This document shows, piece after piece, positions 28,174 through 47,380 of a stretch of DNA of 64,000 nucleotides. The notes under the pieces were generated by a model. That model saw only the letters and a program-made list of their open reading frames with translations. It did no database searches and was not told where the DNA came from. Position numbers and translations under genes: made by a program. The DNA lies in assembly GCA_030145245.1 (NCBI GenBank), contig JAQYWC010000071.1, positions 62,001 through 126,000 on the forward strand, in the 5' to 3' direction. This stretch comes from Desulfobacterium sp. (lineage in GTDB: Bacteria > Desulfobacterota > Desulfobacteria > Desulfobacterales > Desulfobacteraceae). Position 1 is the stretch's first letter; each line of letters opens with the position of its first letter.

Positions 28174-30495
28174 ATGGCGCCATTGTTACCCAGAAAATCA
28201 AAATACCGCAACCGGTCAACATCCTTGGCCATCCTGCTTCTAATCGCTTTCATCTCCCTTTGGCCGGTATCAGCGGCAGCTTTGTCAGAGATGCCGACCA
28301 AGGAGACATCCTGGCACATTTCCGCCCTGAAGGGTACCCAGGACCAGGAGAGGGATCTCTATGTCGCCGAAGGCGAGGTGGTGATCACAGGCGGCAACAC
28401 CCGGCTGGAAGCGGACTATGTGGAGTTCAACAACACCACCAAGGATGCCCAGGCCAGAGGACATGTGCTCCTGATTTCAGGAGAAGACACGGTAACCTGC
28501 GAGTCCATGAACCTCAACCTTGCCACTGAGACAGGAACCATCTATGACGGCACCGTGTTTATCCAGGAGAACAACTTCTATATCAGGGGTGATAAAATCA
28601 CAAAAACCGGCAAGGATACTTACCAGGCCGGGAAAGCCTCCCTCACCTCCTGTTCAGGAGACGCCCCGGACTGGAAAATTTCGGTCAGGGATGTAAAGGT
28701 CACCATGGAAGGATACGGGTTTGCAAAACACGCAACTGTCTGGGCAAAAAAGATGCCCACCCTGTACTCGCCCTTTCTGGCATTTCCGGCAAAGACAAAG
28801 CGGCAGACAGGCTTGCTTGCGCCCCAATACTCCATTTCAGACCGAAAGGGATTTCAGTTCACCCAGCCCCTGTTCCTTGCCCTCTCCCGAAACACGGATG
28901 CGACCCTCTACGCCGACTACCTGGAAAAACGGGGCATAAAGCTGGGAGCCGAATACCGTTATCTCCTTGCCAACGGATCCAAGGGAACCGCGTTCCTGGA
29001 TTTTATGGACGACCGGAAGATCGATGACGGCACCGAAGACACCGAGGATTACCGCTACAGCAGCACCCCGGACAGGACCAACACGGACCGGTACTGGTTC
29101 AGGATGAAACATGACCAGAACCTTCCGGGCCAGTGGAAGGCAAAACTGGATCTGGACATTGTAAGCGACGCCGACTATCTCCGTGAATTCAAGGACGGTT
29201 ACACGGGTTTCACCCAGACCCGGGACTATTTTGACAGCACCTTCGGCAGAAGTGTGGACGACTATGACGACACGATCCGGGCAAACCAGTTCAACCTGAA
29301 CAAAACCTGGTCCGCCTACAGCCTGAACATGGACGTTGACTGGTATGACAATGTCATCGCAAGAAGGGACCACAGCGATGACACGACCCTACAGACCCTT
29401 CCGGCCGTCGCGTTCAACTCGATCCGGCAGAGAATCAACCACACCCCCCTGTACGTGGATTTAGATTCCGAGTTCAGGAGTTTTTACCGGAAGGACACCA
29501 CCGCCGCCAAAACAAACGGCCAGCGAACCGACCTCCATCCCACCCTCTATCTTCCCATGCGGGCCGGACAATACTTCAGTCTGGAGCCATCCGTGGGAGT
29601 TCGCCAGACCCTTTGGTATTCGGACGAGTACGAATACGCCTCCGGAAACGACGAGGGGTTTAATCACCGGGAACTTTATGACCTCAACCTGAAACTTTCA
29701 ACCGAGGTATCCCGGGTGTTCAGCCCGGCCAACGGGTTTGCCGATAAGATTAAACACGAGATCACGCCTGCCCTTGAGTATCACTACATCCCGGACAGGG
29801 ACCAGGACGACCTGCCCTTCTTCGACGACACGGACAGGATCGCCAGGAGAAATGACCTGACCTGGTCAATGACCAACCGGTTCGTCACAAGAAAGCGAAA
29901 GCCCACCAGGGCAAAGCCGGAATCCGCCCCTTTGGCAGCCACAAAACCCGAAGGCACAGAAGAGGAGTATGTCTACCACGAATTTGCCTGGATCAAACTC
30001 TTCCAGACCTGCTACTTTGAAGATCAGACCCATTACGACGAGGACGTAAGATTCGACTCCTCCCAATCCTTTTCCGACATCTCCCTGGAGAGTGAGTTTT
30101 CACCCTACTCCTGGCTCTCCCTGGAACTGGATGCAGACTGGTCTCCCTATGAGAACCACTTCATGGAACAGAGCACCGGCCTCACCCTGAGGGACACCCG
30201 GGGAGATTCCATCCAGGGCTGGTACCGATACAAAAGGGAACGGACCGAACCTCTGAAAGTGGATCCCTCGGAGACGTTTTACGTCAGGTTAGACACAACC
30301 CTGACATCGAGACTCAGTGCCTTTTTCACCTATGAAGAGGATCTGTTCAAAAAAGAGAGGGTCGAAGCTGTAACCGGTATCCAGTATCGCAAAGATTGCT
30401 GGTCCCTGCTTCTGGCCTACAAAGACGAACCGGACGACAGATCCTTTGGTTTCATAATAACCCTGTATGGTATCGGAGAATTCGGACGAAAATGA
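28174..30495 (+). CDS. lptD: LPS-assembly outer-membrane protein LptD
   Basis: 773 residues. A signal peptide ends around residue 36 (WPVSAAALS). An OstA/LptA-like N-terminal domain (YVAEGEVVITGG, LEADYVEFNN) is followed by a long beta-barrel region rich in aromatic and acidic residues and ending in a strand (SFGFIITLYGIGEFGRK). LptD inserts lipopolysaccharide into the outer membrane, so the cell is diderm with LPS. Only a few cysteines are visible, so the E. coli disulfide pattern is not obviously kept. Its stop overlaps the start of the NusG-like gene (ATGA). Confidence 0.9.
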   Translation: MAPLLPRKSKYRNRSTSLAILLLIAFISLWPVSAAALSEMPTKETSWHISALKGTQDQERDLYVAEGEVVITGGNTRLEADYVEFNNTTKDAQARGHVLLISGEDTVTCESMNLNLATETGTIYDGTVFIQENNFYIRGDKITKTGKDTYQAGKASLTSCSGDAPDWKISVRDVKVTMEGYGFAKHATVWAKKMPTLYSPFLAFPAKTKRQTGLLAPQYSISDRKGFQFTQPLFLALSRNTDATLYADYLEKRGIKLGAEYRYLLANGSKGTAFLDFMDDRKIDDGTEDTEDYRYSSTPDRTNTDRYWFRMKHDQNLPGQWKAKLDLDIVSDADYLREFKDGYTGFTQTRDYFDSTFGRSVDDYDDTIRANQFNLNKTWSAYSLNMDVDWYDNVIARRDHSDDTTLQTLPAVAFNSIRQRINHTPLYVDLDSEFRSFYRKDTTAAKTNGQRTDLHPTLYLPMRAGQYFSLEPSVGVRQTLWYSDEYEYASGNDEGFNHRELYDLNLKLSTEVSRVFSPANGFADKIKHEITPALEYHYIPDRDQDDLPFFDDTDRIARRNDLTWSMTNRFVTRKRKPTRAKPESAPLAATKPEGTEEEYVYHEFAWIKLFQTCYFEDQTHYDEDVRFDSSQSFSDISLESEFSPYSWLSLELDADWSPYENHFMEQSTGLTLRDTRGDSIQGWYRYKRERTEPLKVDPSETFYVRLDTTLTSRLSAFFTYEEDLFKKERVEAVTGIQYRKDCWSLLLAYKDEPDDRSFGFIITLYGIGEFGRK

Positions 30496-31016
30496 TTCAA
30501 GCCAAGCAATGGTACACCCTTCTCACGCGGAGCCGTTTTGAAAACGTTGTATTCAAGGACATCCAGAAAAAATCCATTGAGGCCTTTCTTCCCAGAATCA
30601 AGGTAAAGAGCCGGCGTAAAGACAGGAAACTGATGATCGATCTCCCCCTGTTTCCGGGCTTCCTCTTTGTCAACATAGGTCCCGACCCCCAGGAGCACCT
30701 GAGCGTCCTGAAAACCTATGGCTCTGTTCGGCTGCTGGGGTTTTCAGACGGCCCGGTGGCCGTTCCCGACAGCCATATAGAGTCCCTTAAGATCATCACA
30801 AGCACAGACAGTGACATCATCTGCGGCACCACGGGAACCCTCAGGAAAGGCGAGATGGTTCAGGTGGTAAACGGACCCTTTTCAGGCGTCAGGGGAGAGT
30901 TTTTGCGCTACAAGGGCAAAGACCGGGTGATCATAAAGATTGAGACACTGGGCCAGTTCGCAGGCGTTGAAATCGACAGGGATGATGTGGAAGTATTGCC
31001 GGATATCCTCGCCTAA
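30492..31016 (+). CDS. NusG-family transcription factor paralogue (RfaH/UpxY-like)
   Basis: 174 residues from the ATG at 30492, which overlaps the lptD stop. The NGN domain is shown by WYTLLTRSRFENVV, FLPRIKVKSRR and LPLFPGFLFVNI. The KOW domain is at the C-terminus (KGEMVQVVNGPFSGVRG to DVEVLPDILA). General nusG normally sits with rplK/secE, so this is a specialised paralogue. Such factors promote antitermination of long operons for polysaccharides or envelope components. Coupling to lptD suggests an envelope target. The target operon is not visible. Confidence 0.85.
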   Translation: MIQAKQWYTLLTRSRFENVVFKDIQKKSIEAFLPRIKVKSRRKDRKLMIDLPLFPGFLFVNIGPDPQEHLSVLKTYGSVRLLGFSDGPVAVPDSHIESLKIITSTDSDIICGTTGTLRKGEMVQVVNGPFSGVRGEFLRYKGKDRVIIKIETLGQFAGVEIDRDDVEVLPDILA

Positions 31017-31020
31017 CCCC

Positions 31021-31049
31021 TTGACATAGTATAAAAATTTGTTTAGATA
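31021..31049 (+). promoter_or_regulatory. Sigma-70-type promoter upstream of the HU/IHF gene
   Basis: TTGACA (31021-31026), a 17-nt spacer and TAGATA (31044-31049) give a near-consensus promoter 102 bp before the HU-like gene. A hairpin with a T tract lies directly after the predicted start point. Confidence 0.55.
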
Positions 31050-31057
31050 GTGACTTG

Positions 31058-31085
31058 CGCCCATCCGATGGGCCAATTTTTTTTA
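31058..31085 (+). terminator. Intrinsic terminator or attenuator after the NusG-like gene
   Basis: GCCCAT-CCG-ATGGGC (about 31059-31073) followed by CAATTTTTTTT is a good rho-independent terminator for the lptD-nusG-like unit. Because the promoter at 31021 lies just before it, it could instead act as an early attenuator for the HU gene. Confidence 0.65.
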
Positions 31086-31150
31086 CGGAAAAATGGTCTC
31101 GCACACTGGTTTGCTGATGAGCCTGTTCCAGACAACATAAAAGAGGATTT

Positions 31151-31426
31151 ATGAATAAACTTGAACTTATCTCCGTCCTGAAACAGAGGTCGGATCTTAC
31201 AAAAACTGAGGCAGCCGAAGTTGTTCAGATATTTTTTGATTCATTGACCGATGCACTTTCAAAGGATGAACGGGTCGAAATACGCGGTCTGTGCAGTTTT
31301 TTTATCAAAGAGTACAAAAGTTATACCGGTCGAAATCCAAAGACCGGGGCCAAGGTAACCATTCCGGCAAAGAAACTGCCGTTTTTCAAGTGTGGCAAAG
31401 AGCTGAAAGAACGGGTCGATTATTAG
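31151..31426 (+). CDS. HU/IHF family DNA-binding protein
   Basis: 91 residues, standard size. The arm motif GRNPKTGAKVTIPAKKLPFFKCGKEL matches the DNA-intercalating beta ribbon with its proline, and the N-terminal helical dimerisation part is KLELISVLKQR. The ribbon sequence leans toward IHF-alpha-like proteins, but HU and IHF cannot be separated safely. A ribosome binding site (AGAGGA) precedes the ATG. holB follows 3 bp after the stop. Confidence 0.93.
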   Translation: MNKLELISVLKQRSDLTKTEAAEVVQIFFDSLTDALSKDERVEIRGLCSFFIKEYKSYTGRNPKTGAKVTIPAKKLPFFKCGKELKERVDY

Positions 31427-31429
31427 CCA

Positions 31430-32512
31430 ATGCCTGTTCATGACACAGCAGAGGAGCATTGCCGGCCAAAGGAAGGGACAGACCTGCCCAAGGCATTGAC
31501 AGCCATCCTTGAGACCCGAAAAATACCCAATGCTCTTCTGCTCCTCGGCAACCCGGGCATAGGCAAGCAAGACGCCGCACTGCAGTTTGCCCGGGCAGCC
31601 AACTGCCAGGGCGAACGGCTGTCCAGGGCACTTGCCTGCAACAGATGCAAATCATGCAGAAAGATCGCCGCAGGGATGCACCCCGATATCCTCCGGGTTG
31701 CCCCGGTAAAGGGCTCCATCAGAATTGCACAGATCCGTGACCTTTACGGAGCCATCACGGTAAAACCCCATGAGGCGAAATTCCGCATGGTTCTGATCCA
31801 GGACTCGGATGCCATGAACCCGGAGGCGTCCAACGCGCTGTTGAAGATCCTTGAAGAGCCGCCGGACCGCACCTTTTTCGTTCTGACTGCAGAAACAACC
31901 GATACCCTTCTTCAGACCATCCTTTCCCGGTGCCGGCAGGTGCGGTTCAGGCCGGCAAGCGTTGAAAGCATCCGGAAGGTCCTGGTGGACGCCCACGGCA
32001 TTGATCCTGTCATGGCAAAGGTTGCGGCATCATGGTCCGACGGAAGCCTCAGCAAAGCCCTCAGGCTTCTCAACCTGTCAGACAACAACGACGGCACGGA
32101 CTGGATAAAAAGACGGCAGTGGCTCATCACCGAAACAGCAGCCCTGATCAAAGGCGGCAACGGAAGCGACCGGACCGCCCTCCTTCTTTTAGCGGAAAAG
32201 ATCGGCCGGCAACCTGACCTCTTAAAGGATTCCCTGGCCGTCATCAGAACCTTTTTCAGGGACATTGCCGTGTTCGGATACAGCCCCGGCACCATTGTCA
32301 ATAATGATTTTTCAGCCCTTTTGCTGGAGATCATCCAAAATCAGCCGGCCCTGGCCCGGAAAGCCCTGGAATGGATCAAAGAGATCCACGGGGTTGAAAA
32401 AACAATCAAGGCCAATGCAGGTGCCAGATTAACCTTGGAAGCATTTTTCATTAAACTCATACCTGCCAGGCAAAGGCCTGACGCCATAAAGGTCCACAGG
32501 AGAGCATCATGA
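31430..32512 (+). CDS. holB: DNA polymerase III delta' subunit
   Basis: 360 residues. Clamp-loader AAA+ features are GNPGIGKQDAALQFA near residue 40, the zinc module CNRCKSCRKI (with Cys67), HPDILRVAP, and the SRC motif in ILSRCRQVRF, preceded by ALLKILEEPP. Delta' is the stator of the clamp loader that places the beta clamp. The ricT start overlaps its stop, and metG follows, the same order as around holB-yaaT-metS in Bacillus. Confidence 0.93.
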   Translation: MPVHDTAEEHCRPKEGTDLPKALTAILETRKIPNALLLLGNPGIGKQDAALQFARAANCQGERLSRALACNRCKSCRKIAAGMHPDILRVAPVKGSIRIAQIRDLYGAITVKPHEAKFRMVLIQDSDAMNPEASNALLKILEEPPDRTFFVLTAETTDTLLQTILSRCRQVRFRPASVESIRKVLVDAHGIDPVMAKVAASWSDGSLSKALRLLNLSDNNDGTDWIKRRQWLITETAALIKGGNGSDRTALLLLAEKIGRQPDLLKDSLAVIRTFFRDIAVFGYSPGTIVNNDFSALLLEIIQNQPALARKALEWIKEIHGVEKTIKANAGARLTLEAFFIKLIPARQRPDAIKVHRRAS

Positions 32513-33306
32513 CAAAAATTGCAGGTATCCGTTTCAAGCCTGCCGGCAAAATATACGATTTTGACTGCGGCGCGTTTGTCCTAGATATAGGGGACAAGGT
32601 GATTGTGGAAACAGAGCAGGGGCTTGGATTCGGTGTTGTCACCGTCCCGCCGGCGCCCCTTGAATCTGAGAAAAAGAAGAAACAGCTCAAAAAGGTGTTC
32701 CGCATCGCCACGGAAGCGGACTTCCAGAAGAGGGAAAAGAACAAGGAGCTTGAGCAACAGGCCTTTGACTTCTGCCAGGGCTGCATCTCAAAGCTTGGGC
32801 TGAAGATGAACCTCTTCTCCGTGGAGAGCACCTTTGATGCGGCCAAGCTCACCTTTTTCTACACGGCCGACGGCCGGGTGGACTTCAGGGAACTTGTGAA
32901 GATCCTTGTCAAGGAGTACCGCATCCGCATCGAGATGCGCCAGGTGGGCATCCGGAACCAGTCAAAACAGTGCGGTGGACTGGGCAGGTGCGGCCGGGAG
33001 ATCTGCTGCTCATTGTTCATGAAGAACTTTGATCCTGTGTCCATAAAGATGGCCAAGGAGCAGGGTCTCTCCCTGAATCCCACAAAAATTTCAGGCCTGT
33101 GCGGCAGGCTCATGTGCTGCCTCACCTTTGAAAACAAAACCTACAAGCTACTGAAAAAAGAGCTTCCCAAACCAGGCAAGATCCTTGAAACCCCCAAAGG
33201 CCGGGGCAAGGTGATTCGTCAGAACGTGCTCAGGGGAACGGTATCACTCCGCCTTGAAGATGGTTCTGAACTCGAAGCCGACCCAAAAGATCTAAGCAAA
33301 GGATAA
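32509..33306 (+). CDS. ricT: PSP1/RicT-family regulatory iron-sulfur protein
   Basis: 265 residues. The PSP1 C-terminal domain is recognised by the cysteine-rich core CGGLGRCGREICC and GLCGRLMCCLTFE. In Bacillus RicT (YaaT) forms a complex with RicA and RicF that binds Fe-S clusters and affects RNase Y-dependent mRNA processing. No ricA or ricF homologues are seen here, so the protein may act alone or with other partners in this lineage. It overlaps holB by 4 bp and precedes metG by 10 bp. Confidence 0.9.
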   Translation: MTKIAGIRFKPAGKIYDFDCGAFVLDIGDKVIVETEQGLGFGVVTVPPAPLESEKKKKQLKKVFRIATEADFQKREKNKELEQQAFDFCQGCISKLGLKMNLFSVESTFDAAKLTFFYTADGRVDFRELVKILVKEYRIRIEMRQVGIRNQSKQCGGLGRCGREICCSLFMKNFDPVSIKMAKEQGLSLNPTKISGLCGRLMCCLTFENKTYKLLKKELPKPGKILETPKGRGKVIRQNVLRGTVSLRLEDGSELEADPKDLSKG

Positions 33307-33316
33307 CATTCGACAA

Positions 33317-35251
33317 ATGAAAACAAGCGATCCCAATTTTTTCACCACCCCCATCTACTATGTCAATGCCAAGCCCCATCTTGGGCACGCCTATACCACC
33401 ATTGCAGTGGACGTTGCCGCCCGCTACAGCCGAATGTGTTCAAAGGATACCTACTTTCTCACCGGAACGGACGAACACGGTGACAAGATAGCCGAGGCTG
33501 CAGACCGGGAGAGCACCACGCCAAAGGCCTATGCCGACAAGATCAGCCAGCGGTTCCAGGACCTGTGGCCAAAGCTGAACATCAGCAACGACCACTTTAT
33601 CAGGACCACAGACCCCGATCACATCAAGGTGGTGAAGGGGCTTCTGTCCAAGATCCACGAGGCAGGGGACATCTACTTCAGCGAATACGAAGGGATCTAC
33701 TGCTTCGGGTGTGAACGCTTCTACCAGGAGCGGGAGCTTGTGGACGGCAAATGTCCGGACCACGGCACGGTGCCGGAAACCATCAAGGAGTCCAACTACT
33801 TTTTCCGCATGAGCAAATACCAGGAGTGGCTCATTGATTACATCAACAGCAACCCCGGCTTCATCCGGCCCGAACGCTACAAAAATGAAATCCTCTCCTT
33901 TCTCAAGGAGCCCCTGGAGGACCTTTGCATCTCAAGGCCCAAATCACGGCTCACCTGGGGCATCACCCTCCCCTTTGACCAGGATTATGTCACCTATGTG
34001 TGGTTCGACGCCCTGACCAACTACCTCTCGGCCCTGGGGTATCCTGACGGAGAGCTGTTCAACCGCTTCTGGCCCAACACCCGCCATTTTGTTGCCAAGG
34101 ATATCATTAAACCCCACGGCATCTACTGGCCCTGCATGCTCAAGGCGGCCGGCATCGAGCCTTACCACAGCCTCAATGTCCACGGCTTCTGGAACGTGGG
34201 CGGATCCAAGATGTCAAAGAGCATCGGCAACGTCACCGATCCTGTGGAGGTGACCGACACCTACGGCACGGACAGCTTCAGGTACTTTCTCATGCGGGAG
34301 ATGGTGTTCGGCCTGGACTCCAACTTTACCGAGGACACAATTGTCCAGCGGATCAACTCAGACCTTGCCAACGACCTTGGCAACCTCTTTTCCAGGGTGG
34401 TCTCCATGGTCCACCGCTACTTTGACGGAAGCACCCCCGGGTTTGATGCTGCACTTGACAAGGAGCTCACCCTCAAACCCCAGGCGGACAAATGCGTCGA
34501 AAACTATAACCGCTTCATGGAAAACACGGAGTTCCACAAGGCCGTCATTGCCGTGTGGGAGTTCATCAGCACCATGAACAAGTATATCGACACCCAGGCG
34601 CCCTGGACCCTTGCAAAGGACGAGGAAAAAGCACCGGCACTGGAAACGGTCATGTACAACCTTGTGGAAGGATTGAGAACGGTTGCCAGCCTGATCTATC
34701 CCATCATGCCCGAAACGTCGGTCAGGATGCGGACCCTCCTCAACATCAAAATGCCTGCCGACCGGGAGTTCCACACCATGGAGGAGATTACCCCCTGGCA
34801 CCAGACAACCGCCGGCACCGTCATTGAGAAGGCACCTGTCCTGTTTCCAAGGATCGATGTCAAGGTGGTGGAAAAAGCCGCCCCAAAAAAAGCGCCGGCT
34901 AAAAAGAAAGCCCAGGCCCTGAAACCCGAGATCACCATCGACGATTTTGCAAAGATCGATCTTCGGAGCGGAACCGTTATTTCGGCTGAAAAGATCAAAA
35001 AATCCAACAAGCTGCTCAAGCTCAGGGTGGACCTGGGTGAGGAAGAACCCCGCCAGGTGATCGCAGGCATAGCAAAAGACTATGACCCCGACCAGATTAT
35101 CGGCAAAAGTGTTGTCGTGGTTGCCAACCTGGCCCCTGCCAAGCTCATGGGAGAGACCTCCCAGGGGATGGTGCTTGCGGCAAACGACGGCAAAAGCCTC
35201 GCCCTGACCGGATTCGACAAAACGGTCAACCCGGGAAACCAGATAAAATAG
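33317..35251 (+). CDS. metG: Methionyl-tRNA synthetase with C-terminal tRNA-binding domain
   Basis: 644 residues. The class I motifs are intact: HLGH in KPHLGHAYTT (~18) and KMSKS in GGSKMSKSIGN (~297). One zinc knuckle is present (CFGCERF and CPDHG). After the anticodon-binding domain comes a lysine-rich linker and a Trbp111/Arc1p-type tRNA-binding domain (about 540-644; DFAKIDLRSGTVIS, ANLAPAKLMGETSQGM). Its intact catalytic motifs contrast with the CysRS-like domain at 25114. Confidence 0.96.
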   Translation: MKTSDPNFFTTPIYYVNAKPHLGHAYTTIAVDVAARYSRMCSKDTYFLTGTDEHGDKIAEAADRESTTPKAYADKISQRFQDLWPKLNISNDHFIRTTDPDHIKVVKGLLSKIHEAGDIYFSEYEGIYCFGCERFYQERELVDGKCPDHGTVPETIKESNYFFRMSKYQEWLIDYINSNPGFIRPERYKNEILSFLKEPLEDLCISRPKSRLTWGITLPFDQDYVTYVWFDALTNYLSALGYPDGELFNRFWPNTRHFVAKDIIKPHGIYWPCMLKAAGIEPYHSLNVHGFWNVGGSKMSKSIGNVTDPVEVTDTYGTDSFRYFLMREMVFGLDSNFTEDTIVQRINSDLANDLGNLFSRVVSMVHRYFDGSTPGFDAALDKELTLKPQADKCVENYNRFMENTEFHKAVIAVWEFISTMNKYIDTQAPWTLAKDEEKAPALETVMYNLVEGLRTVASLIYPIMPETSVRMRTLLNIKMPADREFHTMEEITPWHQTTAGTVIEKAPVLFPRIDVKVVEKAAPKKAPAKKKAQALKPEITIDDFAKIDLRSGTVISAEKIKKSNKLLKLRVDLGEEEPRQVIAGIAKDYDPDQIIGKSVVVVANLAPAKLMGETSQGMVLAANDGKSLALTGFDKTVNPGNQIK

Positions 35252-35266
35252 GATTGGGGAGAGCGG

Positions 35267-36673
35267 TTGCATAATCACACCAAAAACACCAGCTGGCGGG
35301 AGTTCCAGTCAGAAATACACCTTGAGAATCGAAGGAAAAGAAACCTTTCCCGGATTTTCAAGCTACTCCTTCTTGTCCTGATCTGTGTAGGAACCATGAT
35401 GGGCATCACCAAGGCAAACATCCCCAGCCTGCCGAATATCATGGATATGGTGAAGCAAAAGCTTCCCCTTGACGCCCTGCTGCAAAAGGGGGAACAAAAG
35501 GTTGAGGAGGAAGCACCGCTCCCCGGTTTAACACGGAAGGATCTCAAGGAACTCCTGGATCCTTCCCTGCTGTTCAATACCGAAACATCCACCATTGTGG
35601 TGAACCGTGATGTTGACCGCTATACCATAGAAACCAGCCTTGATCCTTCGTTTCAACGGTTTCTCACAACCAAGCTTGACCGGCTCAAGACCCTTACCCG
35701 GGGAAAACCCCAGCGCATCGGCCTGGTGGCCATGGATCCCGGCACAGGAAAGATCCTTGCCATGGCAGGGTTTGATCTTGCCGATCCCAAGGCCAACCCC
35801 TGCACCATGGGAAACTATCCGGCCGCAAGCGTCTTTAAAATAGTGACGGCCTCGGCAGCCGTGGAAAGCATGGGATACACCCCCCGGACCCCCATGTACT
35901 TCAACGGCGGGAAATACACCCTTTACAAACGGCAGCTCAAGGACAAGAAAAACCGCTACACCACCCGGGTCACCCTTGGCAAGGCCTTTGCGGAATCGAT
36001 CAACCCTGTGTTCGGCAAGATCGCATCCACCCGGCTTGAGAAAGAGAAACTCCGGCACTACGCCACCACATTCGGGTTCAACCAGGAGATGGATTCGGAT
36101 TTCCCCTTTGATTCCGGAAAAATTCTTATCAAAGACAACGCCTACCAGCTGGCAGAGGTGGGATGCGGGTTTAACAAGACAACCACCATCTCCCCCATTT
36201 TTGGCGCCATGCTCTCCGCCACCATTGTCAACCAGGGCAAGCCCCCCCTGCCCTCACTTGTAAAAACGGTTACCGACGCAAACGGCTCGGTGATTTACAC
36301 AAATAAGCCGCCCATCTTCAGAAAGGCCGTTGATCCAAAGACTGCCCAAGCCATCATGACCATGATGGAAAAAACCATCACCTCGGGTACGGCCAGTAAA
36401 TCCTTCAGAAGGTTCAAGCGGGATTCAACCCTCTCAAAACTTGAAATCGGTGGCAAAACCGGATCTCTCTACAACAAGGACAACACTGTCAAGTACGACT
36501 GGTTCACCGGATTTGCCAAGGATAAAAACGGGGACAAAGCCCTGGCCCTGGCCGTGGTTGTCGGTCACAGAAAATACATCGGCACCCGGGCGGCAAGCTA
36601 CGGTAAAATGATGTTCAAGCACTATTTCAAATCCTATTTTGCATCAAACAAAAATACGATCAACAACGGTTAA
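35267..36673 (+). CDS. Penicillin-binding protein, transpeptidase domain only
   Basis: 468 residues from a TTG start preceded by GGGGAGAG. One membrane segment (about 30-47) is followed by a short linker and a transpeptidase domain with the three active-site motifs: SVFK (~188), SIN (~243) and KTGS (~397). It is shorter than class B PBP2 or PBP3 because the N-terminal dimerisation module is nearly absent, and no glycosyltransferase domain exists. It should cross-link peptidoglycan or act as a carboxypeptidase or sensor-like PBP. The large GlmS-like gene starts 20 bp downstream. Confidence 0.85.
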   Translation: MHNHTKNTSWREFQSEIHLENRRKRNLSRIFKLLLLVLICVGTMMGITKANIPSLPNIMDMVKQKLPLDALLQKGEQKVEEEAPLPGLTRKDLKELLDPSLLFNTETSTIVVNRDVDRYTIETSLDPSFQRFLTTKLDRLKTLTRGKPQRIGLVAMDPGTGKILAMAGFDLADPKANPCTMGNYPAASVFKIVTASAAVESMGYTPRTPMYFNGGKYTLYKRQLKDKKNRYTTRVTLGKAFAESINPVFGKIASTRLEKEKLRHYATTFGFNQEMDSDFPFDSGKILIKDNAYQLAEVGCGFNKTTTISPIFGAMLSATIVNQGKPPLPSLVKTVTDANGSVIYTNKPPIFRKAVDPKTAQAIMTMMEKTITSGTASKSFRRFKRDSTLSKLEIGGKTGSLYNKDNTVKYDWFTGFAKDKNGDKALALAVVVGHRKYIGTRAASYGKMMFKHYFKSYFASNKNTINNG

Positions 36674-36693
36674 AATCCTGAAACGGAGGAACC

Positions 36694-39600
36694 ATGCCAT
36701 TTCCAATACTGAACCGTTCCATGCTGAAGAAAAGCATTTCACGACTCCTTTCCACATCCATCCAGTTCGGAAAATCCCCGGACCGTGCAAAGGAAAACAG
36801 CCTGATTCTGTTTCCGGTTCGACCCAACACGTTCTGCTGCGGGCTGTCGTCCCTTGTGAGCTACAAAGGCGTTAGCGCTTCCCCGGAAGAGACAGACCTT
36901 CGTTCCATGGAACAAGATATCGACATCCTCCGGGAGAGTTCGCTGACCGCCTGCCTTTCCAAGGGGCTCGACCTTGGGGAGAGCTATCTGGGTGGCGAAG
37001 AGCGTCTCTCCCTCTTTCTGGAACTGGCCCACACCCTTCGAAGGAAAGGGCCGTTTTACGACCTCTATTCCAGCCAATCCAGGGAAAAAGAGCTGAAAAC
37101 CATCCTGGAAGCGCTGGGAGCCCTCCTCATCCAGGAGAAGAGCGAGCTCAAACAGCGGATGGCCGACCTTGCCGCCAAGGAAGTAGACACCGTGGCCCCG
37201 AGATTAGACAAACTCCAGGACATCATCTGGTGCCTTGAAAAAGAGGTGCTGGAAAACCTCGAGAGAATCCGTGACCTTGCCCTGTTCTCCTCCAATCCCG
37301 GAACAAAAGAGCAGATCACGATTTTCAAGAAGATCAATGCCGTGCTCAACAGCATAGACCGCCTGGAGGTGAGGGGCAGGGATTCTGCCGGGATCTCCCT
37401 TCTCTTTGTCTTTTCCAAGGAAGAATTTGAAGGTTTCCGGGACCAGCTTGTCAAGGCAGGCCTTGGCGACCAGCTGAAGCAGAGAACCAACAGGACGGTT
37501 CTCACCAACAACAGCATCACGGTCCACGACACCAATGACGACGATGGGAAACACCTTGTCAGCATTGCCATTGTCTATAAATTTGCCGCCGAGATCGGCG
37601 CCCTGGGGGACAATGTCTCCTTTCTCCGAAGCCAGATCAGAAACGACCAGATCCTCCAGATTCTGACCAAGGCAGACGCCTTGTTCAACACGGTATCGGC
37701 CCACACCCGATGGGCGTCGGTGGGAGACATCTCCGAAGCCAACTGTCATCCCGTGGACAACGTGCCAACGGACAAGGAGATCGAAAAGAGCGGCATCATC
37801 CATGTCAGTCTGAACGGTGATATCGACAACTACCTGGAACTCAAGACCGACTATGAAAACAGGTACGACGCCATAGCCCCTGATATCACCACGGACACCA
37901 AGATCATCCCCCTTGAGATCGAGCATTTTCTGAGGCAGGGAGAGACCGTGGAAGAGGCCTTCAGGCTGGCCGTCAATGAGTTCAAAGGCTCCCATGCCAT
38001 CAGCATGCACACCGACCTTGCCCCGGGCAAGCTCTTCCTGGCCCAGAAGGGCAGCGGCCAGGCCCTGTTCATCGGCCTGGGCCCGGACCACTACATTGCG
38101 GCATCGGAACTCTATGGTCTTGTGGAAGAAACCCAGACCTTTCTCAAGCTCAATGGCGAAAAAGCGGGTCAGATCATGATCCTGGACCAGAACTCCACAG
38201 GAGGACTCACAGGCCTCAGTTCACGTGCCTATGACGGCACCCCCATCGAGCTCAGCCAGAACGACATCCAGACCAGTGAAATCACCGGAAGGGACATCGA
38301 CCGCCAGAACTACCCCCACTACTTTTTAAAGGAGATCTCCGAGGCCCCGACCTCCGTGGAAATGACCCTGCAAAACAAGTGGAAAACCTGCCCAGATACC
38401 GCCCTCTACACCACAATTCTGGACCGGTCTGTCATTCCCGCATTCCTTGAAGAGGAACTGAAACAGGGAAAAATCAAGCGGATCTACTTCATCGGCCAGG
38501 GAACGGCAGGGGTCGCAGCCCAGGGCTGCGCCGACATCCTCGCCTCCTATCTTGCCGATACCAGCATCCAGATCCGGGCCCTGAAATCCTCTGAGCTATC
38601 GGGCTTCTCCATCCGGGGAAAGGACGGGGATACCGACTCCATGGCCGAAGACCTGGTGGTGGCCATCAGCCAGTCAGGCACCACCACCGATACCAACCGG
38701 ACCGTGGACATGGTGAAATCCAGAGGCGCCCGGACCCTTGCCATTGTCAATCGCAGGGATTCGGACCTCACCTTTAAGACAGACGGCGTTCTCTATACAA
38801 GCAGCGGCAGGGACATTGAGATGTCCGTTGCCTCCACCAAGGCCTTCTACTCCCAGATCACTGCCGGCGCCATACTCGGTCTTCACATGGCCGCCATGGT
38901 GGGAGCGATAACAGAGGAGAGAATCACCGAAGAGATCAACGAGCTTGTCACCCTGCCGGACAAGATGCGAAAGATCCTCTCCATGAAGGAGGAGATCGGC
39001 CGTTCGGCCAAGCGACTGTCCGTTCAAAAGAACTACTGGGCCACCGTAGGCAGCGGCTCCAACAAAACGTCGGCCGACGAGATCCGGATCAAACTGTCCG
39101 AGCTATGCTACAAGACCATCTCATCGGACTTTGTCGAGGACAAGAAGCACATTGATCTCTCATCCGAGCCCCTGATCCTCATCTGTGCCGCCGGAACGAG
39201 GGAGAGCGTGCTCGGGGACATCATCAAAGACACCGCCATCTTCCACGCCCACAAGGCCGCTCCCGTGGTGATCACCAACGAGGGAGAAAACCGGTTTGAT
39301 CCATACAGCATGGACGTGTTCAAGGTGCCCCGCACCGGAGAACACCTGGCGCCGATCCTCAACACCCTGGTGGGTCACATCTGGGGCTACTATGCCGCCC
39401 TTGCCATCAACGAAGGCTCGGAGTTCATGTACACCGCCAGAAACGAGATCAAGGAGCTCCTGGATGAATTTACCAGCATGGGACGAGATATCTATGAGGT
39501 GATTCTTGAGAAGCGGTTCAGGGAGAGCATTGCCGGGTTCTACGCCGATTTTTCAAAACGGCGCAGGGAAAAGCGGTTTCCGGCCGCCCTGGGGCTTGAC

Positions 39601-40413
39601 AACGCCACCAACATCACCCTGCTTTTGAAATATCTTTCAGGCCGCCTGCCCGTGTCCGACTTTGAGATGGATTTTGCCGAAAAGGGCACCCCTGCCAACA
39701 TGCTGAACGCGTTCTTCGAAAACATGGGGGAATCCATCAACACCATGGCAAGGCCGGTGGACGCCATCAAGCACCAGGCAAAGACCGTCACCGTGGGCAC
39801 CAGCAGAATCAGTGAAACCTTTGAAGGCATCGTGTTTGACGAACTTGCAGCCCACGGTATCACCATTGCCCAGCTGACCAACAGGAACGTCATGGTGCTG
39901 AAAAACCTCCAGCAGGTGGTTTCCGAAATCAAGGGGGGCCTTTTCTACAAAATTTCCGGCCTCAACCTCCTTGGCGAGCCTTCAGCCGAAACAAGGATCC
40001 AGGTTGCCAAAAAAACCGGCAATCTTGCCGGCGAAGTCTCCAGGGTGGAGAACGACCACCAGCTCAAGGGAACCAAGCACATCATCGTAAGGGAGGGCAA
40101 CGTCTATATCGGCAAAGGCCGTAAAGACAACAAGAGCATCCTCGTGATACCCGTGCTCTCATCCTCGGCCCACACCTCATCCACCATCGAGCACATCCTC
40201 TCCCTGAACGTGGGATTCAAGGCGGCGGATCAGGTGTCCCTCATGAAAAAGACCAAGGCCCTTGGGGGAAAATACACCCGGATAAAAGATATCATCCTCG
40301 AATCCTCGGACATCCCCAAATGGGACGACAAGCTCCTTGACCTTGTGAGCATCGACACCCTGTTCGGCGACTCGGCCGAGAAGATCGCAGAGCAGATCGA
40401 AGCCAGGGCATAA
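36694..40413 (+). CDS. Giant GlmS-like protein: GATase-II plus double SIS plus extra domain
   Basis: 1239 residues, about twice GlmS, with a strong GGAGG before the ATG. Glutamine amidotransferase features are split: Cys49-Gly50 (FCCGLSSL), a ~170-residue helical insertion, RGRDSAG (~227), HTRWASVGDIS (~340) and VSLNGDIDNYLELK (~371). Two SIS domains follow (FIGQGTAGVAAQG ~598; ISQSGTT ~657; GSGSNKTSADEIRIKLSELCY ~786), then ~290 residues of extension with no GlmS-like tail. Cys49 would need removal of a 48-residue propeptide, as in other Ntn amidotransferases. Glucosamine-6-phosphate formation is possible but unproven. It follows a PBP gene, which suggests a wall-related role. Confidence 0.85.
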   Translation: MPFPILNRSMLKKSISRLLSTSIQFGKSPDRAKENSLILFPVRPNTFCCGLSSLVSYKGVSASPEETDLRSMEQDIDILRESSLTACLSKGLDLGESYLGGEERLSLFLELAHTLRRKGPFYDLYSSQSREKELKTILEALGALLIQEKSELKQRMADLAAKEVDTVAPRLDKLQDIIWCLEKEVLENLERIRDLALFSSNPGTKEQITIFKKINAVLNSIDRLEVRGRDSAGISLLFVFSKEEFEGFRDQLVKAGLGDQLKQRTNRTVLTNNSITVHDTNDDDGKHLVSIAIVYKFAAEIGALGDNVSFLRSQIRNDQILQILTKADALFNTVSAHTRWASVGDISEANCHPVDNVPTDKEIEKSGIIHVSLNGDIDNYLELKTDYENRYDAIAPDITTDTKIIPLEIEHFLRQGETVEEAFRLAVNEFKGSHAISMHTDLAPGKLFLAQKGSGQALFIGLGPDHYIAASELYGLVEETQTFLKLNGEKAGQIMILDQNSTGGLTGLSSRAYDGTPIELSQNDIQTSEITGRDIDRQNYPHYFLKEISEAPTSVEMTLQNKWKTCPDTALYTTILDRSVIPAFLEEELKQGKIKRIYFIGQGTAGVAAQGCADILASYLADTSIQIRALKSSELSGFSIRGKDGDTDSMAEDLVVAISQSGTTTDTNRTVDMVKSRGARTLAIVNRRDSDLTFKTDGVLYTSSGRDIEMSVASTKAFYSQITAGAILGLHMAAMVGAITEERITEEINELVTLPDKMRKILSMKEEIGRSAKRLSVQKNYWATVGSGSNKTSADEIRIKLSELCYKTISSDFVEDKKHIDLSSEPLILICAAGTRESVLGDIIKDTAIFHAHKAAPVVITNEGENRFDPYSMDVFKVPRTGEHLAPILNTLVGHIWGYYAALAINEGSEFMYTARNEIKELLDEFTSMGRDIYEVILEKRFRESIAGFYADFSKRRREKRFPAALGLDNATNITLLLKYLSGRLPVSDFEMDFAEKGTPANMLNAFFENMGESINTMARPVDAIKHQAKTVTVGTSRISETFEGIVFDELAAHGITIAQLTNRNVMVLKNLQQVVSEIKGGLFYKISGLNLLGEPSAETRIQVAKKTGNLAGEVSRVENDHQLKGTKHIIVREGNVYIGKGRKDNKSILVIPVLSSSAHTSSTIEHILSLNVGFKAADQVSLMKKTKALGGKYTRIKDIILESSDIPKWDDKLLDLVSIDTLFGDSAEKIAEQIEARA

Positions 40414-44221: not shown

Positions 44222-47200
44222 ATGAAGGAAAAAAAGAACCTTCATCAGGACTGTAAAAACCCCCTTTCTTCCTGTGGGACATCCACGGGAATCACCTGCC
44301 GGAAAAGCCCCGGATTTTATGCGTGTCTGTTGATTTTGTGCATGTTTGCAGGTGCGCCTGCAGGCGCTTTTGCCGAACCCGAAAAGGTCACCCTGCAGTT
44401 GAACTGGAAGCACCAGTTTGAGTATGCCGGATATTACGCAGCAAAGGAGAAAGGGTATTATGCCGGTGCAGGTCTGGATGTTGAGTTCCGGGAAGGACTT
44501 CCCCAATCGACACCGGTGACTGAGGTCCTGGAAGGGCGGGCAGACTTCGGCGTCTGGGTTTCCAGCCTGATCTCAGAGCGTCTCAACGGCAAGCCTGTGG
44601 TTATGCTTGCCAACTATTTCAAACACTCCCCCCTTGTTATCATTGCAGACCCTTCCATCCGCATGCCGTCACAGCTTCGGGGTAAAAAAGTCATGGGGCC
44701 TGTTGAAGATGGAGAGATCGCTGAAATTTCCTGGCTTCTGAAGGCCAACGGCTTAGGGGTAGACTCCGTCAAGTGGATTCCCCATACCTATGACCCCATG
44801 GATATTGCGGAGGGCAAGGCCGACGCCATGACGGCGTACATCACAAATCAACCGTTTGCATTGGATGAACAAGGAATTTCCTATAATATTCTGGACCCTG
44901 CCAATTACGGAGCGGACTTCTACGGGGACAGCCTTTTCACTTCCGAGCATCAGATGCAGGAGAACCCTGAAAGAACCTGGAAATTTGTGGAGGCCACTTC
45001 CCGGGGGTGGGAGTATGCCCTTAACCATCCTGATGAGATCATCGATCTGATCCTTGAAAAATATTCGAAAAATATCCCCAGGGACAAGCTTCTTTTTGAA
45101 GCCCGGGGCACCCGCGAGATGATTCAACCCGGTGTCTTTGCAGTAGGGTCCATTGATGAAGTGAGGATCAGACGCATTGCAGACAGGTTGGTTGAGCTTG
45201 GGATGGTGGACAAAGGCTACACCCTTTCAGGATTTATTTATGGATCAACCGATCGGCCCCCTGTGACGGAGGGACGTATTCCCCTGACAGAAGAGGAGAG
45301 GCTCTTTGTAAGAACCCACCCTGTTATCCGTGTGTCAAATGAGTTCAACTGGCCCCCCTTTGATTTTGTGGTCTCCGGAGAGCCACGGGGGGTTGGCATT
45401 GAATTGATGAATATGATTGCGGCCCGAACCGGCCTTAACGTTGAATACGTGAACGGATACAACTGGGATGAGCTGCTGACCATGTTTTTCAAGGGGGAGA
45501 TCGATATAATTCACTCCATAAGCCGTACACCGGAACGGGAGAAGAAAGCCCTGTTTACCAACCCCTACTATCACAGCAAAAACGTTCTGGTCCTGAGGCG
45601 GGACACGGCTGACATTCAGGACCTCAAGGATCTTGAAGGAAAAATCATCGCCCTGCCCAGGGGGTGGTCCTCCATTGATTTTTTCAAGAAAAATTATCCG
45701 GACATTCATATCATTGAAGTGGAAAACTCACGGCAGGCCCTTGAGTATGTGGACCAGGGCAAGGTACAGGCCACCGTTGAGCAGGAGGGGATTGTTTCCT
45801 ATTTCATCAATAAATTTGGCTTTCGGGACCTGAAAATCTCCAGTTGGCTGGAAGATGCGGCATTACAAGACACCTCCTCCCTCCATTTTGCGGTTCGTAA
45901 AGAGAGACCGGCTCTTCACGGCATTCTGGCAAAAGGCCTGGCAACGGTCACCCCCGGCGAAATGCTTAATCTGAGAAATAAATGGTTCGGCAATAACGGG
46001 TTCAATTCCAGCCGGAAAGAGGTGGGGCTCACCCTGTCTGAACGGAACTGGCTGAAGCAAAAGGGGAGGATAACCTTCTGCATCGCCCCCGACAGAATGC
46101 CTTTTGAGGCATTTTCAGGGAAAGATGTAACCGGTATGACATCTGACTTTCTGAAGTTGTTCAGGGAGCGCCTCGGCGTTCCACTTACCCTTATCCCAAC
46201 AAACTCCTGGGAGGAATCCGTGGAACAGGTCAGAACAGGTAAAGCCGATATCCTGACCATCGCAAGCGTCTCCCCCAAACGGCTGCAGTTCCTGGACTTC
46301 ACCCCATCCTATCTCAACTGCAGTGTCGGAATCATTGTCCGGGAAGACTTCCCCTTCATTACCGGTATGGATGAGCTGGCAGGTAAACGGGTCGGCATCA
46401 TGAAGGACACTTTTATCTGGGATGTTATTCCCGAAAGATATCCGAAAGTCACCTATGTCCCTGTAAAAAACCGCCGGTTTTCCCTGGTTCAGGTCTCCAA
46501 TGGAAGCCTGGATGCCGTCATTATGGATCTGCCCGTGGCCGCAAACAACATCCGGCAACTGGGCCTGACCCACCTGAAGGTGGCCGGTCACACCGCTGTT
46601 CTCAATGAAATGCGCATCGGGATACGGAAAGATAGTGCCCGGCTCCATGGCATCATGAGCAAACTGGTTCGCTCTCTCTCCAGAAAAGAGGTGGACGCGG
46701 TTTACCAGAAATGGGCAGCCATCCGGTTTGAAAGCGAGTTTGACCGATCACTCCTCTTCAAAGTGATCGGGTTTGCCCTCTTTGCGGTCATATTTATTTT
46801 TCTCTGGAACCGCAAGCTCGTTCATCTGAACCGCAGGATCTCCCAGGCCCATGCCGAAGTTGAAGCCAAAAGCCTGCAGCTCGAACGCATCTCCATCACC
46901 GACACCCTGACCGGACTCTTTAACCGGAGGCACCTGGAAGAGACCTTCGCTGTTGAAGTCAAACGATCCCGCCGCTACAAGCGCCCCCTCTCTGTGATGA
47001 TTATCGATATTGACCATTTTAAATCCATCAACGACACCCACGGCCACCAGGCAGGCGACACGGTCCTCCGCCAGATAGCAAAAGTCCTTGATAGGAACAG
47101 CCGCTCATGCGATATCCTGGGCCGCTGGGGCGGCGAGGAATTTATGCTCATCTGCCCGGAAACCAGCCTCAGGGGAACCGCCGCCGTGGCGGAAAACCTT

Positions 47201-47380
47201 CGCCTGAAAATTCGTGAAATACTCTTTCAGACCGCAGGTACCCAAACCGCAAGCTTCGGTTTGGCAACCCTCAAGGATGAGGATACCGGAGAATCTTTGA
47301 TTCACCGTGCAGATACGGCGCTCTACCGCGCCAAGGAAAACGGGCGCGACCGTGTCGTAACCGAAGATCTATCTTCATAA
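44222..47380 (+). CDS. Diguanylate cyclase with NMT1-like and two SBP-type sensor modules
   Basis: 1052 residues. A signal/anchor segment (about 30-52) is followed by an NMT1-like binding-protein domain (LQLNWKHQFEYAGYYAAKEKGYY), then two SBP_bac_3-like domains (from ~365 IRVSNEFNWPPFDF and from ~610 ITFCIAPDRMPFEAF). A membrane helix (~850; VIGFALFAVIFIFLWN), a short coiled coil and a GGDEF domain end the protein. The active-site GGEEF is intact and an I-site RSCD lies five residues before it, so it should make c-di-GMP under feedback control. The input is probably a periplasmic solute such as a pyrimidine-like or amino-acid compound. Confidence 0.92.
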   Translation: MKEKKNLHQDCKNPLSSCGTSTGITCRKSPGFYACLLILCMFAGAPAGAFAEPEKVTLQLNWKHQFEYAGYYAAKEKGYYAGAGLDVEFREGLPQSTPVTEVLEGRADFGVWVSSLISERLNGKPVVMLANYFKHSPLVIIADPSIRMPSQLRGKKVMGPVEDGEIAEISWLLKANGLGVDSVKWIPHTYDPMDIAEGKADAMTAYITNQPFALDEQGISYNILDPANYGADFYGDSLFTSEHQMQENPERTWKFVEATSRGWEYALNHPDEIIDLILEKYSKNIPRDKLLFEARGTREMIQPGVFAVGSIDEVRIRRIADRLVELGMVDKGYTLSGFIYGSTDRPPVTEGRIPLTEEERLFVRTHPVIRVSNEFNWPPFDFVVSGEPRGVGIELMNMIAARTGLNVEYVNGYNWDELLTMFFKGEIDIIHSISRTPEREKKALFTNPYYHSKNVLVLRRDTADIQDLKDLEGKIIALPRGWSSIDFFKKNYPDIHIIEVENSRQALEYVDQGKVQATVEQEGIVSYFINKFGFRDLKISSWLEDAALQDTSSLHFAVRKERPALHGILAKGLATVTPGEMLNLRNKWFGNNGFNSSRKEVGLTLSERNWLKQKGRITFCIAPDRMPFEAFSGKDVTGMTSDFLKLFRERLGVPLTLIPTNSWEESVEQVRTGKADILTIASVSPKRLQFLDFTPSYLNCSVGIIVREDFPFITGMDELAGKRVGIMKDTFIWDVIPERYPKVTYVPVKNRRFSLVQVSNGSLDAVIMDLPVAANNIRQLGLTHLKVAGHTAVLNEMRIGIRKDSARLHGIMSKLVRSLSRKEVDAVYQKWAAIRFESEFDRSLLFKVIGFALFAVIFIFLWNRKLVHLNRRISQAHAEVEAKSLQLERISITDTLTGLFNRRHLEETFAVEVKRSRRYKRPLSVMIIDIDHFKSINDTHGHQAGDTVLRQIAKVLDRNSRSCDILGRWGGEEFMLICPETSLRGTAAVAENLRLKIREILFQTAGTQTASFGLATLKDEDTGESLIHRADTALYRAKENGRDRVVTEDLSS

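Follow-up and report, generated by a model that had tools for sequence, protein, structure and literature searches.

GlmS makes glucosamine-6-phosphate (GlcN6P) and glutamate from glutamine and fructose-6-phosphate. This reaction is the committed step to the amino sugars of peptidoglycan and LPS, and the textbook form of the enzyme is very uniform. The window, which is the whole stretch of 64,000 nucleotides analyzed here from a Desulfobacterium sp. contig, contains a gene for a GlmS-type protein of 1239 amino acids (36694..40413, + strand), identified from its translation and its homologues. The questions that this locus raises are whether such a protein is real, which reaction it catalyzes and what its additional parts contribute. 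As described below, we consider it probable that this gene supplies the organism with a functional glucosamine-6-phosphate synthase, a member of a deeply divergent long lineage that would be made as a precursor requiring removal of a leader and that has a tail which a putative sensor domain may gate.

The ORF is real and conserved, in agreement with an earlier note on this DNA, which had described a GlmS-like protein made unusual by a leader, a helical insertion and an extended C-terminus. An assembly fusion or artefact was ruled out by homologues of the same length, with 43-90% identity, that occur across the class. A wrong start codon was ruled out as well. A Shine-Dalgarno sequence, GGAGG (36685..36689, + strand), is located 4 nt upstream of the ATG, the leader is kept in relatives, and no ATG, GTG or TTG occurs within the 38 codons upstream of Cys49; the only possible starts are 39 and 48 codons before it. 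Therefore, the leader does not result from a wrong start call.

Upstream of the gene is a conserved cluster, recognized by Pfam and by synteny, that consists of lptD, a nusG-like gene, a holB-like gene, psp1, metG and a PBP-type transpeptidase gene (28174..36673, + strand). Synteny was compared at 94 loci. At the 61 of these loci whose upstream flank exceeds 2.5 kb, the neighbors include psp1 (48), metG (48), holB (45), the transpeptidase gene (41), lptD (29) and the nusG-like gene (24), and short flanks lower these counts. The lptD-to-transpeptidase neighbors are absent from all 14 outgroup loci (L156-L169), and the standard glmS genes of genomes G039, G177, G178 and G180 are not beside the metG cluster in the stretches that were read. 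No glmS ribozyme or other Rfam element reached the gathering score within the window.

Two other ORFs in the window are worth recording. The ORF with the NusG domain (30396-31016) begins inside the 3' end of lptD; it has a TTG start as listed, and the real start may be later. The second (44222-47380) encodes a sensor of 1052 aa that combines NMT1, two stretches of SBP_bac_3 and GGDEF; a single predicted diguanylate cyclase here carries several modules for solute binding.

Catalytic residues and distribution

Pfam detects both GATase_6 and SIS in the ORF. The NCBIfam GlmS models match residues 308-904 under their cut-offs; for example, the long form scores 250 bits against TIGR01135, which has an equivalog cut-off of 418.05 bits. 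The double SIS isomerase domain (residues 536-904; 38299..39405, + strand) was delimited with TIGR01135/NF001484 and by its VIA match to solved isomerase domains (Z about 40). The long form and E. coli GlmS have 28% identity over 602 aligned residues, and in the phylogenetic tree the long forms are in a strongly supported branch that is separate from standard GlmS.

To compare individual residues, 84 long forms of at least 1190 aa (the window's protein and the deduplicated loci of its relatives) were aligned with E. coli GlmS and the standard GlmS of G039. The glutaminase nucleophile and the glutamine-site residues of GlmS-type enzymes are present in all 84. Cys49 (36838..36840, + strand) is the equivalent of E. 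coli Cys1, and R227, R339, W340, N374, G375 and D401 are the equivalents of R26, R73, W74, N98, G99 and D123, respectively. The isomerase catalytic residues Glu488, His504 and Lys603 are also found in 84/84 sequences, as E803, H819 and K1030, together with E796 and K800 (E. coli E481 and K485) and the equivalents of E. coli Q348, S349, T352, V399, S401 and A602. The mapped residues other than C1, E488, H504 and K603 are likewise catalytic or ligand residues. Some positions near the active sites are changed in all or most of the long forms: T76 to Ser, H77 (which we take to be beside the glutaminase site) to Val, Ile or Met, S303 to Ala and H493 to Thr. The S347 equivalent is Ser in 77 of them and Thr in seven. 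The catalytic roles of C1, E488, H504 and K603 in GlmS are described in PMC9272926.

The earlier note had proposed looking for a normal GlmS elsewhere in the genome, and none was found. A SIS search gave only the long form, a KdsD/KpsF-like protein and an RpiR-like regulator, the last two identified by reading rather than by HMM, and a separate standard GlmS was therefore rejected. The genome does encode GlmM, the next step of the pathway. Among the 58 relatives searched, 57 had a match, one (G039) solely through a standard GlmS and another (G006) solely through a distant SIS protein; only G039 was above the TIGR01135 cut-off.

The same pattern is seen in larger samples. In a class sample of 241 genomes that are at least 90% complete, 235 matched the query (P0001), four of these (G039, G177, G178 and G180) through standard GlmS alone. 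TIGR01135 was above its cut-off in 4/241, in each case through a standard protein of ~610 aa. Altogether, 231 of these genomes have only the long form, four have only the standard form and none has both. The remaining six (G054, G070, G071, G072, G079 and G146) have neither, which could be a gap, another enzyme or auxotrophy. In a phylum sample (n = 394), the long form was scored as a match to residues 905-1239 (55 genomes) and the standard form as a GlmS above the cut-off (318 genomes); 54 genomes have only the long form, 317 only the standard form, one both and 22 neither. Fisher's test gives p 2.7e-47 for this exclusion, a value that ignores relatedness and is only descriptive, since related genomes are not independent. 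The single phylum-sample genome with both forms, G408 (locus L163, at G408:C29:21750-22736), may represent redundancy or a recent transfer. The whole-collection scan, which extended beyond the phylum, used patterns that catch close relatives only. The cultured relatives Desulfobacter vibrioformis and Desulfoluna butyratoxydans are among the bacteria in which it detected the long form.

One genus includes both kinds of enzyme (standard in G177 and G178, long in G057 and G174-176), and both kinds also occur within families f24, f92, f106 and f112, which indicates that the swap happened several times. The long form appears to replace standard GlmS across nearly an entire order of sulfate reducers.

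The retention of the catalytic residues, together with the near-strict exclusion with standard GlmS, would imply that the long form carries out the ordinary GlmS reaction, and thus the new substrate suggested in the earlier note finds no support here. Glutamine-dependent synthesis of GlcN6P is predicted from the pattern of genomic replacement. One might argue that the protein aminates a different sugar phosphate, e.g., an envelope or LPS sugar, and that GlcN6P comes from elsewhere; lptD is among the gene neighbors, and the altered S303 and H493 positions would be in line with this. However, the mutual exclusion, the replacement of one form by the other within a genus and a genome that has glmM and no other GlmS all go against this suggestion, and we consider it very improbable.

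The leader before the nucleophile

The protein, predicted to be a glucosamine-6-phosphate synthase, begins with a leader that is probably a propeptide (residues 1-48; 36694..36837, + strand). The nucleophile Cys49 follows 48 residues, exactly as claimed previously, so that loss of the initiator Met alone, which usually suffices in GlmS-type enzymes, does not expose it. A leader ahead of the nucleophile Cys is the arrangement found in the propeptide-bearing class-II amidotransferases of the C44 type.

The leader is present in 80 of the 84 aligned long forms, and all 80 have a Pro at position -8 from the catalytic Cys; a Phe at -9 occurs in 75/84. We read the four rows that lack the Pro as the four leaderless rows, in which the upstream DNA is non-coding. 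The residue at -1 varies among the relatives, and in 16 of the 80 leader-bearing rows a codon that could serve as a start lies 2-10 codons upstream of the Cys. Compared with the 90%-identical relative L019, dN/dS in the leader is 0.45.

Some long forms of other lineages have no leader, and in these the loss of the initiator Met is enough to expose the Cys. Met-Cys starts occur in the aligned rows L072, L085, L090 and L101, and also in L157, L159 and L169, while GTG directly precedes the catalytic Cys in L156, L158 and L160. L156-L160, from family f112, are divergent and shorter long forms (open frames of 1137-1170 aa) that are leaderless and have ATG or GTG before the catalytic Cys. Exposure of the Cys by Met removal only is a usual, and not a necessary, feature of the reaction. 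On a 44-row tree, the leader state changed at least four times among the 36 long rows (26 with a leader and 10 without). Such repeated gain or loss fits a leader that is necessarily absent from the mature enzyme.

The Cys works as the N-terminal residue in GlmS (PMC9272926). Its invariance in the long forms would be explained most economically if the leader is removed, either autocatalytically or by a protease. The protein would be made as a precursor in which the ~48-residue leader ends directly before Cys49, and cutting by autocatalysis or by a protease would free the alpha-amino group of the Cys.

If the leader were not removed, the glutaminase would be inactive and the protein would be an ammonia-dependent GlcN6P synthase or an isomerase. 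The variable residue before Cys49 and the change at H77 would agree with this, whereas the invariance of Cys49, R227, R339, W340, N374, G375 and D401 in 84/84 sequences and the same core in lineages that start with Met-Cys would not. We regard an uncleaved leader as unlikely.

Inserts, tail and C-terminal domain

Judged from the spacing of anchor residues, the long form has ~630 extra residues. Besides the 48 of the leader, there are 153 between the C1 and R26 equivalents, 65 between R26 and R73, 112 between E481 and K603 and about 204 after K603, with small additions in between. The earlier note was therefore right about extra residues before RGRDSAG, although there are ~153 of them rather than ~170 (the motif begins at R227, and the Cys-Arg spacing is 178 vs 25 in E. 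coli). They form a ~150-aa helical insert between the first strand and the first helix of the Ntn glutaminase fold (approximately residues 58-204; 36865..37305, + strand), placed by the alignment, the AF2 model and superposition with 1xff. A second glutaminase-domain insert of ~65 residues, absent from the earlier note, is located between R227 and R339, which are 112 residues apart vs 47 in E. coli (approximately residues 238-305; 37405..37608, + strand).

About 335 residues, and not ~290, follow the SIS domains, which end at residue 904, and they are not a substitute for the GlmS tail. The first of them form a ~110-aa helical insert between SIS2 and the tail (~residues 905-1016; 39406..39741, + strand), seen in both the alignment and the AF2 model. 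Next is the C-tail itself (residues 1021-1034, PVDAIKHQAKTVTV; 39754..39795, + strand), in which K1030 (39781-39783) is the equivalent of E. coli K603; the motif and its catalytic Lys occur in 84/84 relatives, and 205 residues lie beyond. The tail has therefore been retained and not replaced.

AF2 models were made from alignments of 40 sequences, i.e., the window's protein and 39 of the 80 loci from the whole-collection scan. The model of residues 49-1239 (pLDDT 82.3, pTM 0.67) recovers the Ntn glutaminase and double SIS fold, and among solved structures it comes closest to E. coli GlmS and human GFAT-1 (Foldseek E of ~2e-28; VIA Z 41.3 on GFAT-1, with 603 aligned residues and an rmsd of 5.0). 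All 238 residues of the E. coli glutaminase domain 1xff align with residues 1-482 of the model (VIA Z 31.1, rmsd 1.8), which means that the helical insert interrupts an otherwise whole Ntn fold. The C-tail (model residues 971-994) has a pLDDT below 50 in the monomer, and so the model does not fix its position. Compared with L019, dN/dS is 0.29 for residues 49-226, 0.094 for residues 227-904 and 0.072 for residues 905-1034.

The C-terminal domain (residues 1035-1239; 39796..40410, + strand) is modeled confidently when folded alone (pLDDT 94, pTM 0.88), and it has a weak PAS/GAF-like resemblance. A Foldseek search with this model gave nothing below 0.001; the best E was 0.013, and PAS-like sensor domains were at 0.013-0.04. 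The best VIA match is residues 174-360 of the large glutamate dehydrogenase (GDH) 7jsr (Z 9.1, 167 aligned residues, rmsd 4.9), only 1 Z above the next row. The core of the domain aligns with GAF and PAS domains over about 80 residues with Z 6-8 (top 8.1); the tool itself cautions that Z values of 7-8 are frequent, and so the PAS/GAF likeness is a lead rather than a finding. Pfam gave no PAS or GAF match in this domain, and a PDB sequence search with its profile gave nothing below E 0.48.

Regulation by a PAS/GAF-like C-terminal domain is plausible. Gating of the tail by a sensor is a hypothesis based on the anatomy, since the tail is held at both ends, together with the weak fold resemblance. 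Ammonia from the glutaminase domain would pass to the double SIS domain with its catalytic Glu, His and Lys. The Lys-bearing tail, placed between the helical module and the PAS/GAF-like domain instead of at the C-terminus, would complete the active site, and the likeliest role of the C-terminal domain would be to sense a metabolite or a partner and gate the tail, a form of allosteric control. More tentatively, the leader might keep the glutaminase inactive before cleavage, a metabolite bound far C-terminally might gate the tail and ammonia use, and the rate of amino-sugar synthesis would be set in this way in the whole order.

It is quite possible, if somewhat short of an even chance, that the C-terminal domain and the helical inserts are structural, serving oligomer or complex assembly instead of the sensing of a ligand. 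Such a role would affect just the added parts and would not conflict with GlmS function. The inserts are helical in the AF2 model, no ligand-binding family was matched significantly by fold or by sequence, and the extra segments of the large GDH also form intersubunit contacts, as reported in PMC8175468. Weak evidence for sensing comes from the alignment of the domain's core with GAF/PAS sensors and from its good conservation (dN/dS 0.131 vs L019).

If the gated, leader-bearing synthase that we prefer is correct, this double-size GlmS lineage, with a leader and a putative sensor on the catalytic tail, would mature and regulate the amino-sugar step in a novel manner. The leaderless lineages and the swaps within a genus make both processing and regulation directly testable.

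Comparison with known systems

The literature searched does not describe a GlmS that is long or has a leader. Other metabolic enzymes do have large additions. L-GDH180 (7jsr), the best VIA match of the C-terminal domain, resembles long GlmS in this respect, and PMC8175468 describes large appended segments that include PAS-type and ACT-like domains. The window's genome itself encodes two proteins of ~1050-1100 aa that are L-GDH-like (PF05088; L180 and L181, at G000:C35 and G000:C74), so that long additions occur in a further glutamate enzyme there.

There are also GlmS-like giants of ~1510-1530 aa in the same bacterial order, beside long GlmS in three genomes (L151:3995-8530, L152 and L153, in G023, G010 and G029, respectively). 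Like long GlmS, they have GATase-II-like motifs, a double SIS and a Lys-bearing tail followed by a long extension, and they start with MCG. They are in a very distant branch of the tree, score just 107.7 bits against TIGR01135 and have altered active-site motifs, e.g., SWSGTTSD (by eye). Parts of the long form showed no sequence relation by hhalign to the two L-GDH-like proteins, and the idea that the C-terminal domain or inserts share ancestry with these or with the giants was rejected for want of an hhalign signal; both results are weak because the targets were single sequences or three rows.

PurF and glutamate synthase have leaders before the nucleophile Cys. Their precursors (MEROPS C44) are like the long form in that the leader is directly before the Cys of a class-II amidotransferase; however, their downstream domains are unrelated to those of the long form. 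These precursors are self-processing, according to PMC5753285, an ability that is only inferred for the long form. The closest comparison is standard GlmS and human GFAT (TIGR01135, PRK00331), which share with the long form the Ntn glutaminase, the double SIS, the Lys tail, the catalytic residues and the fold. Unlike the long form, E. coli GlmS has 609 aa, its Cys directly follows the Met and its tail is the C-terminus.
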